From contig JAJHRD010000004.1 in the NCBI GenBank assembly GCA_020833005.1, positions 1 through 64,000 of the forward strand: a stretch of DNA of 64,000 nt. The letters are read 5' to 3'. Shown one piece after another: positions 12,492 through 21,715 of this stretch. The translations under genes were made by a program, and so were the position numbers. Every line of letters starts with the position of its first letter. Within the stretch, counting starts at the first letter, position 1. The notes under the pieces were generated by a model, which worked only from the letters and a program-made list of their open reading frames with translations, ran no database searches and was not told the DNA's origin. Source of the DNA: Candidatus Methanomethylicota archaeon. Lineage in GTDB: Archaea; Thermoproteota; Methanomethylicia; Culexarchaeales; Culexarchaeaceae.

Positions 12492-13907
12492 TTGAGCGAG
12501 GTAGATGCAGTAGTTAATACTGTTAGGATTTGGCTTGGAAACCCATTGTCGAGGGGATTAATGAGATACATATATAATGGTAGCCCACAATCCTTCAACA
12601 AAATGCTGGAGAAGTATGCAGGGTTAAATGTAAACTTAAGTGCAAGTGAAAAATTCAAATACATTTTACTGGAAAGGATACTGAATATTGGAGCTAAAAG
12701 CTTTGGGAAATCAGAGGAGGAGTTAAGGAGTTCACTGAGGAGCCCATTGATTAGGAGAGCTATAGCAAATGTACTTGGGGGGATAGCTGAATATGGAGTT
12801 ATGAGACCTCAAACAACCATAGCACCATTCCTAGTGGTATGGAATTATACGAGACTATGCAACTTGAAATGTAAACACTGCTATGAAAATGCGGGACCAA
12901 AACAAGATGAAGATGAACTCAACACCATTGAGGCGAAGAGGGTTGTGGATGAATTTGCAGAGGCAGGTGTTGTGGCAATAGCATTCTCCGGAGGTGAACC
13001 ACTAATGAGGAAAGACTTCTACGAAGTGGCAAATCATGCATACAAGAGGGAATTCTACATATCCATAGCCACCAATGGGACATTAATAGATCGTGAAACC
13101 GCAATGAAACTTAAGGATTCAGGAGTCCAATACGTTGAAGTATCATTGGATGGATTGGAGGAAACACATGACAATTTCAGAGGTGTAAAGGGGGCGTTCA
13201 AGAAGAGCATTGAGGGGATAAAGAATTGTATAGATGTGGGTTTAGATGTGGGCGTAGCAACAACAATAACGAAGCAAAACATGAATGAAGTGCCAAAACT
13301 TGTGGATATGCTTGAAGGTATTGGTGTTAAGAGGTTCATAGCCTTCAACTTCATACCAGTAGGTAGGGGGAAAGATATTGTGAAAATGGACTTAGAACCG
13401 GAGGAGAGGAAGAGGATTCTAGAGGGACTTTATGGGAAACTCATAACTCCAAACTGTAGAATACAAACATACAGTACAGCACCACAATACTCAGTTATAT
13501 CAGTAAACTTTGAGGGAGGACCAATAATAGCCACACACTTCACAAACAAATCGGCAATGGAACTATTAAAGGGGAAGGCTAAGGCACTGGCAGAATTCAT
13601 TGGCGGATGCGGTGCTGGAAGACTATACTGTGGCTTAGAGCCAAATGGCGACATAATACCATGCGTATTCATGCCAATAAAAATTGGAAACATAAGGGTG
13701 AATAAACTCATAGACGTATGGAGGGATTCACCAATACTATGGAAGCTTAGAAATAGAGATGAACTGGAGGGGTGCGGTGAATGCGAGTACAGATACATAT
13801 GTGGTGGATGCAGGGCGAGGGCATATGCATACTTCAACAACATCCAAGGGCCAGACCCAGGATGCTTCATAAAAACAGAATACTGGCAAAAGATAAATAA
13901 CAGTTAA
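12492..13907 (+). CDS. Radical SAM-SPASM protein
   Basis: A 471-residue radical SAM enzyme from a TTG start. An N-terminal helical region of about 110 residues precedes the core with Cys123, Cys127 and Cys130 (CNLKCKHC) and a SAM motif FSGGEPLMRKD. The C-terminal SPASM region has cysteines in GGCGAGRLYCG, EPNGDIIPCVFM, GCGECEYRYICGGC and GPDPGC, enough for two auxiliary 4Fe-4S clusters. The family includes peptide-modifying and heme-pathway enzymes (AhbC/D-like). No short precursor peptide or heme gene is adjacent. A PadR-type regulator follows after 24 bases. Confidence 0.88.
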   Translation: MSEVDAVVNTVRIWLGNPLSRGLMRYIYNGSPQSFNKMLEKYAGLNVNLSASEKFKYILLERILNIGAKSFGKSEEELRSSLRSPLIRRAIANVLGGIAEYGVMRPQTTIAPFLVVWNYTRLCNLKCKHCYENAGPKQDEDELNTIEAKRVVDEFAEAGVVAIAFSGGEPLMRKDFYEVANHAYKREFYISIATNGTLIDRETAMKLKDSGVQYVEVSLDGLEETHDNFRGVKGAFKKSIEGIKNCIDVGLDVGVATTITKQNMNEVPKLVDMLEGIGVKRFIAFNFIPVGRGKDIVKMDLEPEERKRILEGLYGKLITPNCRIQTYSTAPQYSVISVNFEGGPIIATHFTNKSAMELLKGKAKALAEFIGGCGAGRLYCGLEPNGDIIPCVFMPIKIGNIRVNKLIDVWRDSPILWKLRNRDELEGCGECEYRYICGGCRARAYAYFNNIQGPDPGCFIKTEYWQKINNS

Positions 13908-16379: not shown

Positions 16380-17033
16380 TTATGTTAACTTTAATGCTTG
16401 TCCAAAACTTAAAATTAGATTAAGTAAAGGTTGCAGCGACTCCTCCTTTAATTCTGCAATTAGGTATATCCATGATTCTTGCTGATTTAAAGATAATCTC
16501 TTTATGAAATTCTTCATATTCAATAAACCTTCTCTTATCTCTGGTTTCAATAGAATCCTCTTTGCAAAATTTATGTCATCAGCTAAAAATACATATGATT
16601 CTTCCAATCCCCCCTCTTCTATTGTTACTTCCTTTAACCTTCTTTCTGAAATAATCTTTTCATAATTCTTCTTATCAGTTTTCTGGAGAATCTCAATGTT
16701 TGAAGTTATTTTATTTTTTAGAAATCCCCAGCAGACAATGCGATCATATTCTTTCGTGATAAGGGAGAGGGGGTAATGCATTAAGTTTTCACGATCAACA
16801 AGCGCTATAGCCATTTCAATTCTATCAAATGCACTCTCCCCCCTCAATCTACATAGCGATCTAAAACCACTATAACCAAACGATTTAAAACCAACAAATT
16901 CGCTATATGGCTTCATATACTCCCTTATCATTTTCGCATACTTTACACTAAGTTTCCTATTCCTATTGCTCCCTGCAAAATATGCTATGAGGAAAATTAT
17001 TGCTAAAAGGTATATTATCCAAAATTCATCCAT
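16380..17033 (-). CDS. Single-pass membrane protein, unknown
   Basis: A 217-residue protein with one N-terminal transmembrane segment (residues about 4-22, FWIIYLLAIIFLIAYFAG) followed by a basic stretch (NRNRKLSVKYAK), so the remaining 190 residues should be cytoplasmic. The soluble part has an alpha/beta pattern with GESAFDRIEMAIALVDREN and a C-terminal helical end. No family or active site recognised. It is divergent from the CstA gene and shares its upstream region (17034-17115). Confidence 0.6.
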   Translation of the reverse strand: MDEFWIIYLLAIIFLIAYFAGSNRNRKLSVKYAKMIREYMKPYSEFVGFKSFGYSGFRSLCRLRGESAFDRIEMAIALVDRENLMHYPLSLITKEYDRIVCWGFLKNKITSNIEILQKTDKKNYEKIISERRLKEVTIEEGGLEESYVFLADDINFAKRILLKPEIREGLLNMKNFIKRLSLNQQESWIYLIAELKEESLQPLLNLILSFGQALKLT

Positions 17034-17115
17034 ACATATTCCTATATACAGGTTATGCCTAAAAATTTATATGTTCAACATTTCATTTAAATATAAAAAT
17101 TGAGGGGAAAAAGAG

Positions 17116-18774
17116 ATGCTTTCATTAATAGTTATTCTCATTGGTATAATTGTATATGCCCTTGTCTACCGTAGCTACATAAAGTGGTATGACAAAAACG
17201 TTATAATGTCGGATCCGAAACGAGCGACACCAGCCCACACATACATGGATGGTGTGGAATTCTTCCCCACAAGCCGCTATATTCTATTTGGCTTTCAATG
17301 GAAGAGCATTGCCGCCTTAGGCCCCGTCCTAGGCCCCATCATAGCGATACAGTGGGGTTGGCTACCAGCCTTCCTATGGATACTCTTTGGAAATATTTTC
17401 ATTGGATGGATTCATGATTATGGAAGCTTGATGGTGTCCGTGAGATCTGAGGGGGCTTCCTTCGGACCAATAACATACGAATTAATATCACCAAGGGCGA
17501 GAACAATACTACTTTGGTATATCTTATGGTATATAGTGCTAATTCTATCATCCTTCACAAATGTAGTTGCCGGCTTATTCAATACCTACCCCGTAACACC
17601 AATACCAGTACTCATAGTGACTATTGTGGGTATGCTGGCTGGTTATATGACATACAAGCTTAAAATCAATATCGTCTATACAACCATTATTGCTGTGGTT
17701 ATCATGTTTCTTGGGGTTTGGGTTGGAATAATGTCACCAGTAATTGCTCCAATACCAAAGGATTGGGTTTTGGACTTCTGGATGGTTATGACACTTCTAT
17801 TCTGCTTCTTGGGCGCAGTCCTACCAATATGGGTCTTCATTCAACCAATAAACTACCTTTCATTCTACCTAGTTTATAGTGGCGTAATAGGTATGATATT
17901 GGGAGTCCTCGTGGCACACCCAAATTATGAATTCCCAGCCATTACAACATTCTTTGACCCGAAAACTACGCCATCAGGACCATTATGGCCAATGATGTTT
18001 GTAACAATTGCTTGTGGAGCAATATCAGGTTGGCATAGTTTAATTGGCTCCTCAGTTTCATCAAAGCAATTGGATTCGGAACCAGACGCCCATTTCGTCG
18101 CTGGTGGTGCTATGCTGGCTGAGGGCATTCTAGCTCTAGTAGCTTTAACAACAGTTGCAATATTGCGACCTGAAGTTGCTCTACCCCTAGCTCCAGCAGT
18201 TCGTTTCGTAACTGGTGGTTCTACACTACTCAGCTACATTGGAGTTCCAATAGCTTATGCAAAAGCTTTTGCAGCAATAATGCTGATCATATTAGCAATA
18301 ACTATCATGCATATAGGGCTTAGGATAACCAGATTAGTGTTATCTGATCTAGCTGGACCAAGATTTGGTGGAATACTTAGGAATAAGTATGTGAGTGCAA
18401 TTGTAGTAAGTTTCATAGTGTGGCTGGTTACAAGCCCACATACTGGTGCAGCCTTCAGCTATATTTGGGGCACTTTTGGTGGAGCAAATCAACTTATGGC
18501 TGGATTGGCTTTAATGATAGTATCACTCTGGCTTACAAGGGAGAAGCGCCCCACAATATACACAGTGATCCCAATGTTCTTCATGATTGGAACAACGATA
18601 TCAGCATTAATCTACCTCTCATACACTGGAGTAACATCCTACATAGCTAATCCAATGATGATTGGGGCTGGAATAGCTGCCACCATAAATATAATCCTAC
18701 TGATACTGGCCTTCTTCATGTGCTATGAGGGTGTAAGAGCATACAGAAGGATAAAAACTGAAATTAAAAAATAA
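17116..18774 (+). CDS. cstA: CstA-family carbon starvation transporter
   Basis: A 552-residue polytopic membrane protein with about 14-15 helices. Family landmarks are YRSYIKWYDKNVI near the start, the segment RATPAHTYMDGVEFFPTSR, then GFQWKSIAALGPVLGPIIA, and SGWHSLIGSSVSSKQLDSE in the middle. CstA proteins import peptides or pyruvate in bacteria; substrates in archaea are inferred only. A Shine-Dalgarno-like GAGGGG stands 13 bases before the ATG. It ends 2 bases from the convergent ArsA gene. Confidence 0.92.
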   Translation: MLSLIVILIGIIVYALVYRSYIKWYDKNVIMSDPKRATPAHTYMDGVEFFPTSRYILFGFQWKSIAALGPVLGPIIAIQWGWLPAFLWILFGNIFIGWIHDYGSLMVSVRSEGASFGPITYELISPRARTILLWYILWYIVLILSSFTNVVAGLFNTYPVTPIPVLIVTIVGMLAGYMTYKLKINIVYTTIIAVVIMFLGVWVGIMSPVIAPIPKDWVLDFWMVMTLLFCFLGAVLPIWVFIQPINYLSFYLVYSGVIGMILGVLVAHPNYEFPAITTFFDPKTTPSGPLWPMMFVTIACGAISGWHSLIGSSVSSKQLDSEPDAHFVAGGAMLAEGILALVALTTVAILRPEVALPLAPAVRFVTGGSTLLSYIGVPIAYAKAFAAIMLIILAITIMHIGLRITRLVLSDLAGPRFGGILRNKYVSAIVVSFIVWLVTSPHTGAAFSYIWGTFGGANQLMAGLALMIVSLWLTREKRPTIYTVIPMFFMIGTTISALIYLSYTGVTSYIANPMMIGAGIAATINIILLILAFFMCYEGVRAYRRIKTEIKK

Positions 18775-18776
18775 AC

Positions 18777-19778
18777 CTACCATTTTTTACTTAATGCTTC
18801 AGCAACACGAGCAATCATATTTATACCAGCAACCTCAGTTTCGTAGAGTGGGATGTAAGCTCTAACAAGTCCAGGGAACTTGTTGTGAATGATTTCTAAG
18901 TAGTGTTCTTGCTCCTTAATCTTATTAGCTATATATGGTGAAACATTTGTTAGATCGAACTCCTCCTTTGGGAGAACTCCATTAACGATAACTCCCCCTA
19001 TCGGTATTTCAAATGCTTTAACCCATCCAATAAACCTCTCAATAACTGCAATTGGGAGTGCGAGGGGTAGAGTGACGAAGAAGAATGCTGTCCTCTCACT
19101 ATCAGTTAATAGTTTACGCCCCTTCTCAATCTGCTCCCTCGTTGATAGAAGGCTAACTAGTAGTGGATCCTTCTTTATCTCCTCCATCACCTTCTCCTTC
19201 CTAAATGAGAGTTTAACTCTAAGGGATAATGCTTCCTTACGACTCTCAATCATTTTATGCAACCAAAGATCATAAACTTTCGACATACCAAGCAAACGAT
19301 ATGTATGTGCAACTGGTGCAGTATCGAAAACATAAGCATCGAATTCCCCCTTCAACATGATATTTATCATATCATCAAACATTGCAGATTCCTCAAATGC
19401 AGGATTTGTGGTGGCAATATCAATGAATGGTTCTGGATCTACTGGGATATCTGCATACTTTAGGAATGCAATTATCTTCTCCCTTATCTCACCCTTATAC
19501 CTTTTAATTGTATCTGAAATATCTATCTCAATGGCATACAAATTCTTCGTATCCCTAATCTTCTGCACCCCCTTCCCCCATATATCCTGCCCAAATGCAC
19601 TCGATAAACTATGAACTGGATTTGTTGAGGATATCAGAACCCTCTTCCCCAAATGTTCAGCAAGGTAATATGCGGCTCCAGCTGCAACAATAGTCTTCCC
19701 AACACCACCCTTCCCACCGAAAAACAAGTATTTCAAATTGGGTTTTGAATCAATGAATTCCTTAAAACTTAAACTCAT
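18777..19778 (-). CDS. ArsA/Get3-like ATPase, copy 1, with switch-I Asp replaced by Asn
   Basis: A 333-residue P-loop ATPase of the ArsA/Get3 family. The deviant Walker A is GGKGGVGKT (residues 21-29) and switch II is in FDTAPVAHTYRLL. Switch I, which reads STDPAHS in active enzymes, is STNPVHS here, so Asn53 stands where the catalytic Asp is expected (Asp57 of yeast Get3). This predicts ATP binding with weak hydrolysis. It lacks the Cys set of arsenite pumps. It is last in an operon with a second ATPase copy and two small paralogues. A tail-anchored-protein or related chaperone role is likelier than arsenite export. Confidence 0.88.
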   Translation of the reverse strand: MSLSFKEFIDSKPNLKYLFFGGKGGVGKTIVAAGAAYYLAEHLGKRVLISSTNPVHSLSSAFGQDIWGKGVQKIRDTKNLYAIEIDISDTIKRYKGEIREKIIAFLKYADIPVDPEPFIDIATTNPAFEESAMFDDMINIMLKGEFDAYVFDTAPVAHTYRLLGMSKVYDLWLHKMIESRKEALSLRVKLSFRKEKVMEEIKKDPLLVSLLSTREQIEKGRKLLTDSERTAFFFVTLPLALPIAVIERFIGWVKAFEIPIGGVIVNGVLPKEEFDLTNVSPYIANKIKEQEHYLEIIHNKFPGLVRAYIPLYETEVAGINMIARVAEALSKKW

Positions 19779-19793
19779 ATTAAACCATCCCCC

Positions 19794-20765
19794 CTATCCA
19801 AAGAGGACTTCAGCCACTTTAGATATCATTTCAAGACCTTTAGGTTCACGATCAAACATGGGGACAACCCCTCTAATCAATGGTCCAAACTCCCTCCTTA
19901 TTATCTCCATATACTTCTGCTGCATCAATATCTTATTTTTCAAGAGTGGTGGAACGTTTGGCTGATTTAGCAATTCAATTGGGTAGACTTGATTCACTAT
20001 TATGCCACTCAATGGTATATTGAATGCACTAAACATTTCCAAAGCCTTCTTAGTATCCAGTATGGGCATTTGCTCCGGTATTAAGACATAGAAGAATGCT
20101 GTATGCTCCTTATCCTTCATCATATTACTAACGAAATCCAATCTAGACCTTATAAACTCCAATTCCTTCAATATCTGATCTTCCTGAGCAAGCCCTCCCC
20201 TCCCACTGAGAACTGCAGCCACATCCCCATATTCATCAGCCTTCTTACGGGTTTCAACTATCTTATCAACCCACCTATCTAGAATTTCCGCCATACTTAA
20301 AAAGCGAATTGCATGTCCATGTGGCATCATATCAAATATATAGTAATCATATGCTCCACCAGTCATCAATTCCACCATAGCATCGAAGGTGGCTGATTCA
20401 GCCATTGCAGGTTCCGCTGCAGATGCTTTAATATAATCGTCCACCTCCTTAGGCACTTCCCCATACATTTCAATAATCTTCCTCCTTATCTCCTCTTGAT
20501 ACATTGCTATCCTCTTATCAGCATCAATTTCCAAAGCGAAGAGGTTTGGAGCTATCTCAACCTCCCCCTTCCCAAAAATATTCCTCTCAAATATATCTGT
20601 GAGGCTGGCTTGAGGATCAGTTGAAAATACTATAACCTTCTTCCCCCTCTTCGCCAACCAATATGCTGTTGCTGCGGAAAGTGTTGTTTTCCCTAACCCT
20701 CCCTTACCCCCAAACAATATGTACTTGATGTTTGGATTGGATTCAAAATATTGTCGAATGGACAT
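19794..20765 (-). CDS. ArsA/Get3-like ATPase, copy 2
   Basis: A paralogue of the neighbouring ATPase. I choose ATG 20765 (MSIRQYF...) because it aligns with the start of copy 1; a GTG at 20786, two bases after the stop of the preceding small gene, would add seven residues. Walker A is GGKGGLGKT. Switch I keeps the catalytic Asp (STDPQASLTDIF), unlike copy 1, but AHS is replaced by QAS. Switch II is in FDMMPHGHAIRFL. Get3 works as a dimer, so the two copies could form a heterodimer with one hydrolysing half; this is inference. Copy 1 follows after 15 bases. Confidence 0.88.
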   Translation of the reverse strand: MSIRQYFESNPNIKYILFGGKGGLGKTTLSAATAYWLAKRGKKVIVFSTDPQASLTDIFERNIFGKGEVEIAPNLFALEIDADKRIAMYQEEIRRKIIEMYGEVPKEVDDYIKASAAEPAMAESATFDAMVELMTGGAYDYYIFDMMPHGHAIRFLSMAEILDRWVDKIVETRKKADEYGDVAAVLSGRGGLAQEDQILKELEFIRSRLDFVSNMMKDKEHTAFFYVLIPEQMPILDTKKALEMFSAFNIPLSGIIVNQVYPIELLNQPNVPPLLKNKILMQQKYMEIIRREFGPLIRGVVPMFDREPKGLEMISKVAEVLFG

Positions 20766-20788
20766 AGTTACTGACAAAATTGGCACCT

Positions 20789-21085
20789 CTAACCAAAAAT
20801 GCTATCAGTAACATCCCTCTCCCTTAACAAAGTCCTCTTCCAAGTCTTTATATGTGGAACAGCATATGGCAATAATCTTAGGGAATAGTATGGTGGGAGT
20901 ACTGGGACGCCAAGCATATCCCCCATGGTTATCAACATGAAGAGATTCTCCAAATACATCCTCGTCCTCAATGCATAGGTAACCATACCATGCATAGCCA
21001 TACCATACACTAAACCCTTAACAGCCTTCTTCACTTCCCCCTCCCCTTTCTTATCTTCACCCTTCTTCTCAACCATAGAATCCAC
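20789..21085 (-). CDS. Small ArsA-associated protein, paralogue 2
   Basis: A 98-residue protein with a charged, Lys/Glu-rich N-terminus and a conserved second half: FMLITMGDMLGVPVLPPYYS, LRLLPYAVPHIKTWKR and TLLRERDVTDSIFG. The same pattern is present in the neighbouring gene at 21139-21408, so the two are clear paralogues. It lies 2 bases ahead of the possible GTG start of ATPase copy 2, which means tight coupling. I know no described function. It may be a helical partner or client adaptor of the ATPases. Confidence 0.7.
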   Translation of the reverse strand: MDSMVEKKGEDKKGEGEVKKAVKGLVYGMAMHGMVTYALRTRMYLENLFMLITMGDMLGVPVLPPYYSLRLLPYAVPHIKTWKRTLLRERDVTDSIFG

Positions 21086-21138
21086 CTCATAAATTAGATT
21101 TAACTCTATTTATAAATATTCCCAGTTCCCCCATAATC

Positions 21139-21408
21139 CTACTCCAATTTCTCAGTTATATCTCTTTCCCTAAGGAGATAATGCTTCCAAGATTGAAGTT
21201 TAGGTATGTAGTAGGGGAGTAATTTAAATCGATAGTATGAGGAGACGGGGTATCCAAGCATATCCCCCATGAGAAGCAACATAAGCATATAATCAACACA
21301 CAGCTTCCTCACCTCTAAATATTGAATCATATCATACACATTCGTAGCACCCAATAGGAAATCCCTCACAGCCAATTTAATCTCCCTAACCTTACTACCA
21401 AATGGCAT
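21139..21408 (-). CDS. Small ArsA-associated protein, paralogue 1
   Basis: About 89 residues from ATG 21408; a longer frame from 21471 would add a stretch unlike the paralogue, so I prefer the shorter start. The second half reads MLMLLLMGDMLGYPVSSYYR, FKLLPYYIPKLQSWKHY and LLRERDITEKLE, matching the next gene residue for residue at MGDMLG, LLPY, SWK/TWK and LLRERD. It is first in the operon small-small-ATPase-ATPase. Hydrophobic but not clearly transmembrane. Function unknown. Confidence 0.65.
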   Translation of the reverse strand: MPFGSKVREIKLAVRDFLLGATNVYDMIQYLEVRKLCVDYMLMLLLMGDMLGYPVSSYYRFKLLPYYIPKLQSWKHYLLRERDITEKLE

Positions 21409-21715
21409 AAAGCTCACATTACCTATCCAAATGCAACTTATAAATCTAATTGGAAGATGTATGAAAACCAAAAATAAGGAAAATCCAATACAACTTCACA
21501 CAAATGAGTATAATCCCATCCAACATCTATCTTAGAAATGAAGATAGCATGTTAATTTCAAAACTGCTTAGTAGTATGGAGATCCCCATTCCAAATAGAC
21601 CTCGAAATCCTCCTCTCACATTATTGGAAATCATGTTTAAATAATTGGAAAAGGTGTTTCAAAGAATCCCTTAAATCAAACTGTAAAGTAAATGTTTATT
21701 GGGGGTGTAAGGGAA
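21409..21715 (+). other. Gene-poor divergent region with one possible small reading frame
   Basis: About 307 bases separate the ArsA-operon start from the next secreted protein. The only thing seen is a plus-strand frame at 21504-21644 (46 residues, starting MSIIPSNIYLRNEDSMLISK) with no clear ribosome-binding site and no recognised family. The rest is AT-rich and should hold the two divergent promoters. No RNA gene was recognised. Confidence 0.3.

Follow-up and report, generated by a model that had tools for sequence, protein, structure and literature searches.

A conserved switch-I Asp/Asn split between paired Get3/ArsA-type ATPases of CstA transporter modules in archaea and bacteria

ATPases of the Get3/ArsA family are generally pictured either as symmetric dimers or as two halves in one chain, both with the catalytic aspartate. 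In these proteins the switch-I Asp positions the attacking water, the beta-7 Asn selects adenine, and a deviant P-loop carries the intersubunit lysine. What, then, does it mean when two such genes lie side by side and one of them reads Asn at the catalytic position? The question is raised by a window of 64,000 nucleotides (the whole stretch of DNA that was analysed) from a Candidatus Methanomethylicota archaeon, in which copy 2 (19794-20786, reverse strand) lies upstream of copy 1 (18777-19778) on the same strand. The two encode single-domain ArsA homologues of about 330 residues each, and the genome contains no other full-length ArsA-type gene.

Both proteins match PF02374 over its full length (210 bits for copy 1 and 238 bits for copy 2, cut-off 24.3 bits) and score 216 and 229 bits with TIGR00345, the GET3/ArsA/TRC40 subfamily, against a cut-off of 135. 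Copy 1, of 333 residues, has the P-loop GGKGGVGKT, followed by SSTNPVHSLSS at switch I and DTAPVAHT at switch II; copy 2, whose start is uncertain (GTG 20786, TTG 20777 or ATG 20765), reads FSTDPQASL. A preliminary description of this DNA had set Asn53 in the STNPVHS of copy 1 against the Asp in the STDP of copy 2, and both codons do read so (AAT at 19622-19620 and, in the ORF, GAT at 20618-20616, both on the reverse strand). Asn53 occupies the position of yeast Get3 Asp57 and aligns exactly with the Asp of STDPAHSL in the archaeal Get3 structures 3ug6 and 3zq6. Asp57 is catalytic in yeast Get3, and the D57N protein binds ATP without hydrolysing it (PMC12506534; also PMC10248533); the trapping of ATP that the description had stated for this change is borne out by the first of these papers, and would extend to copy 1 by analogy. 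As the Asn of copy 1 falls on the Get3 catalytic Asp and the effect of D57N is known, the switch-I observation is therefore correct. Further, Ala157 (codon 19308-19310, reverse strand) stands for the switch-II Gly of DTAPTGHT. Scans for promoters and terminators gave no signal exceeding chance.

The same description had proposed an alignment of homologues from related genomes to see whether the Asn is conserved or unique to this assembly, and that alignment now excludes the latter. Two Thermoproteota genomes, in which the pair is likewise present, carry a copy 46-47% identical that reads SFNPVHSL. A scan of named genomes, with peptide patterns of which the switch-I motif was no part, gave 80 loci spanning Bathyarchaeota, other Thermoproteota, Chloroflexota, deltaproteobacterial lineages, Acidobacteria, Spirochaetes, Bacillota and others; 398 Thermoproteota genomes yielded 30 further loci, and a survey of 301 Chloroflexota genomes 30 more sequences of the copy 1 kind (N-type, as against D-type for copy 2), all locus counts being raw and uncorrected for kinship. 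The motif S[TFL]NPVHSL is found in 107/107 distinct N-type sequences and S[TV]DPQASL in 99/99 readable partners, and all 30 Chloroflexota N-type sequences have NPVHSL together with the switch-II Ala. In the combined N-type alignment the Asn, the switch-II Ala and the P-loop GKGGVGKT are each present in 137/137 sequences, a total that is not fully de-duplicated, as a few genomes may be in both collections; in the D-type alignment the switch-I Asp and the switch-II Gly-His are each kept in 125/125. The Asn of the N copy is thus a family signature, far beyond chance, and the 107 distinct and 30 Chloroflexota sequences rule out a chance or assembly-private substitution. Neither the deviant Walker A motif GKGGxGKT nor the beta-7 Asn varies in either family, and the switch residues are split between them; thus the features of ATP binding are found in both, and those of hydrolysis in the D-type only.

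It is also evident that the two types share a long history. A maximum-likelihood tree of 122 sequences, built by a short search, supports the N clade and the D clade with SH-aLRT values of 99 each and their sisterhood with 95, and the N and D types derive from one duplication. Within-clade distances are correlated between the two (r = 0.956 over 49 pairs), the best of 500 permutations reaching 0.25. Both genes are present in 104/107 loci, the D copy adjoins the N copy wherever the contig permits checking, and the order is D then N throughout, in archaea and bacteria alike; the three apparent cases of a lone N copy were contig ends or removed duplicates. By these comparisons, the N copy is best described as an ancient partner protein obligately paired with the D copy.

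The pair belongs to a larger unit, overlooked in the preliminary description, namely a six-gene CstA transporter cassette of the order cstY-cstA-N-D-cstX-cstX (16391-21448). The CstA-family transporter (17116-18774, forward strand; 552 residues, PF02554 E=3.8e-123) is convergent with the N copy and is the only CstA in the genome. On the reverse strand, a CstY-like protein of 217 residues with one N-terminal transmembrane segment and a weak PF07946 (CCDC47) match lies at 16380-17033, the small protein CstX-B (20789-21085, 98 residues) adjoins the D gene, and CstX-A follows at 21139-21408 (89 residues, with an assumed start at ATG 21408). Almost every pair has small proteins of about 90 residues beside it, with the core GD.LG.P...YY.LRLLPY...WK...LRERD.T. 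These are distantly related to NF041419 (cory-CC-star) and fall below its curated cut-off; at 32 bits for CstX-B and 22 for CstX-A against 80, membership was rejected for both window proteins, and a C-terminal CC was found in 0/161 CstX-like ORFs, the Cys-Cys trait being suggested by the name cory-CC-star only. CstY relatives recur in other CstA modules and are missing from many. Where 3.5 kb or more of sequence was available on each side, CstA was found in 39/41 relatives and was truly lacking in 2/41; CstA was absent, or a short contig could not show it, in 4/41 well-flanked loci or 13/80 in total.

The module itself has been known since 2010, when Castillo and Saier reported that cstA shares operons with cstX, with arsA homologues and in some cases with cstY, and proposed that ArsA energises CstA through CstX (PMC2963123). 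By size, context and shared genera, the small proteins and the 217-residue protein are identified with their CstX and CstY; here, as in their operons, CstA is accompanied by a CstX of about 90 residues, a CstY of about 210 with one transmembrane segment (in their set confined to some archaea) and single-domain ArsA-type ATPases. Adjacent ArsA pairs were also noted, in Cluster 15, for Pyrobaculum arsenaticum and Symbiobacterium thermophilum, and the SXD motif of single-domain ArsA proteins was described as one in which Asp is replaceable only by Asn, with no tie to one member of a pair (PMC2963123). In that account, however, the pairs were ordinary paralogues, whereas the present comparison points to an obligate D/N split. 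What appears to be new here is this Asp/Asn split, its conservation and the contrast with single-copy modules. A literature search, in which subscription journals were scarcely covered, found no paper linking the split to the members of a pair, and queries on cory-CC-star, on D57N with heterodimer and on CstX/CstY with Get3 returned nothing on an Asp/Asn pair.

Modules with a single ATPase serve as a natural control. In 32/32 CstX modules of this kind from the same phylum the switch-I Asp is kept and there is one CstX each, and CstA lies within the fetched stretch in 30/32. At least two CstX genes are present in 59/107 paired loci against one in each single-ATPase locus (Fisher p of about 9e-10, uncorrected for kinship, and counted such that divergent CstX may go undetected). 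The two arrangements occur even within one genus, the pair in two genomes (G048 and G055 of genus g29) and the single-copy module in two others (G090 and G150). Since Asn occurs solely in paired operons and Asp in the single ones, the Asn is found only where a normal partner is available, as would be expected if a heterodimer kept one of its active sites intact. The preliminary description had suggested a heterodimer with one regulatory subunit. Taken as a putative heterodimer with one subunit impaired in hydrolysis, this suggestion is partly supported, and the comparative support from conservation, adjacency, mirrored trees and the restriction of Asn to pairs is strong.

The cassette also appears to behave as a unit. 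DNA similarity between the window and a genome of another family (G113, locus L137) is confined to the six genes, in one blastn block of 78.7% identity over 5118 columns that ends at the cassette edges, and in the genus to which the window belongs two genomes with good coverage have neither the pair nor CstA; the six genes are thus gained and lost together. The pattern points to a set that was transferred or lost as a whole, or else to a mis-binned contig, the last being a possible reason for the absence from the genus that would leave the rest of the argument unaffected.

Taken together, we consider it probable that D and N are obligate subunits of one heterodimeric Get3/ArsA-type ATPase in a CstA-CstX-CstY module, in which N holds ATP and the cycle drives or gates CstA. 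The D and N proteins would pair as a heterodimer in which both subunits retain the ATP-binding features, and the water-positioning switch-I Asp is present in the D subunit only. The N subunit, with its switch-I Asn and switch-II Ala, would hold ATP without efficient hydrolysis, so that each cycle would spend ATP at one site; this cycle might power CstA or control its gating, and the CstX proteins would be the linkers that dock D/N onto the transporter. The asymmetry and the partnership of D and N are strongly supported by the sequence comparisons, and the coupling to CstA is suggested by gene context. In E. coli, CstA requires the small protein YbdD for pyruvate transport (PMC5847655), and CstX is, purely by analogy, a plausible YbdD-like partner; the YbdD family itself, PF04328, was not found in this genome.

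The main rival to the transport reading is that the D/N pair is a dedicated membrane-targeting or assembly machine for CstA, acting as Get3 does on tail-anchored proteins, the ATP being spent on biogenesis and not on transport. The cargo of the heterodimer would be CstX or a part of CstA, delivered to the membrane, where CstY, which weakly resembles CCDC47, would aid insertion. The E. coli CstA-YbdD transporter resembles the present module in being a CstA-family permease with a small partner, but it runs on the proton gradient, without an ATPase of this kind (PMC7730263), so that an ATPase is dispensable for CstA transport as such. The membership of both copies in TIGR00345 also fits this role, as does the comparison of CstY with PF07946, the CCDC47 family of the eukaryotic PAT complex: 7/14 CstY members match at E<=0.1, one exceeding the curated cut-off (29.0 of 27.7 bits) and the rest below it, and in three of them (16380-17033 on the reverse strand of the window, L025:6387-7163 and L140:9722-10519) the match is collinear over profile positions 6-206. 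CstY may thus be a possible prokaryotic relative of this membrane-protein assembly factor; no earlier report of CCDC47 in archaea was found in a literature search, and a genome search with PF07946 gave no clean match, the model being too weak for such a search. Against the assembly role, the CCDC47 match is marginal and CstY has no sequence match in the PDB, many modules are without CstY, and the CstX proteins of the window have no clear transmembrane segment (maximum hydropathy 1.41 and 1.34). On balance, we regard the assembly role as a real but unlikely possibility. Its boldest form, in which an asymmetric prokaryotic Get3 heterodimer, a CCDC47-like CstY and CstX serve specifically to insert or assemble a multipass transporter and tie bacterial and archaeal carbon-starvation operons to the ancestry of Get3 and the PAT complex, is quite doubtful.

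The other readings concern the ATPases themselves and are less likely than the assembly role. N and D could be separate homodimers, D an active ATPase and N an ATP-locked chaperone or scaffold; every characterised Get3 protein is homodimeric, and homodimers were suggested for the CstA-linked ArsA proteins by Castillo and Saier (PMC2963123). A shared complex accords better with the strict adjacency and fixed order, with trees of nearly equal shape and with the lack of any lone N copy, which makes this arrangement improbable. It is more improbable still that the Asn copy hydrolyses ATP normally, with a switch I that functions with Asn: its P-loop and adenine-binding Asn are intact, but in yeast Get3 this substitution does away with hydrolysis (PMC12506534), and the Asn goes together with a further change in switch II (Gly to Ala) and is seen only next to an Asp copy. 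An arsenite pump ATPase divided over two genes, as annotation by similarity and the closest tandem fold (ArsA) might suggest, has a negligible probability, given that the neighbour is CstA, that the arsenite-pump equivalog is missed widely (about 100-112 of 650 bits), that two-domain ArsA-type proteins (L235 and L241) have Asp in both halves, and that a sequence check found no cysteine in either copy and so no metalloid site.

The heterodimer that we favour may be compared with several known systems. E. coli ArsA likewise has two Get3-type domains (A1-A2 of ArsAB) that serve a membrane transporter as a pseudo-dimer, but it is one polypeptide with arsenite-binding cysteines and an ArsB partner, and here there are two genes. 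Get3/TRC40 proteins share the fold, the deviant P-loop and the subfamily; they differ in being homodimers with a CxxC zinc motif at the dimer interface, which the cysteine-free copies lack, and in their catalytic switch-I Asp, which is present in copy 2 and absent from copy 1 and all its N-type relatives. The mycobacterial BagA/BagB (Rv3679/Rv3680, PDB 6bs3) are also two adjacent Get3-like ATPases, and they share crystal entries. The similarity is only distant (36 and 29 bits with copy 2), and membership in these families was rejected at 57 bits at most, against NCBIfam equivalog cut-offs of 400 and 521.

In the window, the D and N genes share a frame with one TAG between them, the commonest relation among relatives being a short overlap (59/97). 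The TAG was read as Gln to give a fused D-N chain, which was folded together with 20 similarly in-frame relatives (pLDDT 72, pTM 0.61). The best matches of this model are full-length closed ArsA structures with MgATP (TM 0.71 and 0.81), ahead of Get3 monomers; as the fusion imposes the tandem order, the model therefore speaks for compatibility with an ArsA-like pseudo-dimer and not for association. No natural D-N fusion was seen among the collected ORFs, a single-module ORF of 661 residues (L233) having been rejected because it comprises a single Get3 domain preceded by an open frame. As a separate observation, cstX, D and N lie in one frame with stop codons between them in 12/94 loci (L030:3639-5999, L049:2570-5119 and others), close to the chance value of 1/9; a three-part fold of the first of these gave no usable placement of CstX, for which the confidence was too low.

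If the heterodimer reading is true, the pair would be a two-part ATP engine of which only one half burns ATP, and a substitution used in the laboratory to trap ATP would have been fixed by evolution, across archaea and bacteria, in one of two obligate partners. Such a naturally occurring pair could help to show how many ATP sites are needed in a Get3-type engine and what its ATP-held state does, much as the degenerate sites of heterodimeric ABC transporters have served. Moreover, as the subunits could be assayed singly and mixed, the 2010 proposal that ArsA homologues energise CstA is testable, and ready controls would be at hand in the single-copy modules and in a cassette with such sharp edges.

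Finally, two minor observations concern the surroundings of these modules. Outside the cassette, the window encodes at 12492-13907 (forward strand) a radical SAM/SPASM protein of the NirJ/AhbC/AhbD type that is under every curated cut-off shown. Near some paired modules there are small proteins with a CxHC-type motif (HCQHC), which gave no Pfam match and fall into two clusters, of 13 and 4 loci (L045:1012-1443 and L033:8611-9069).
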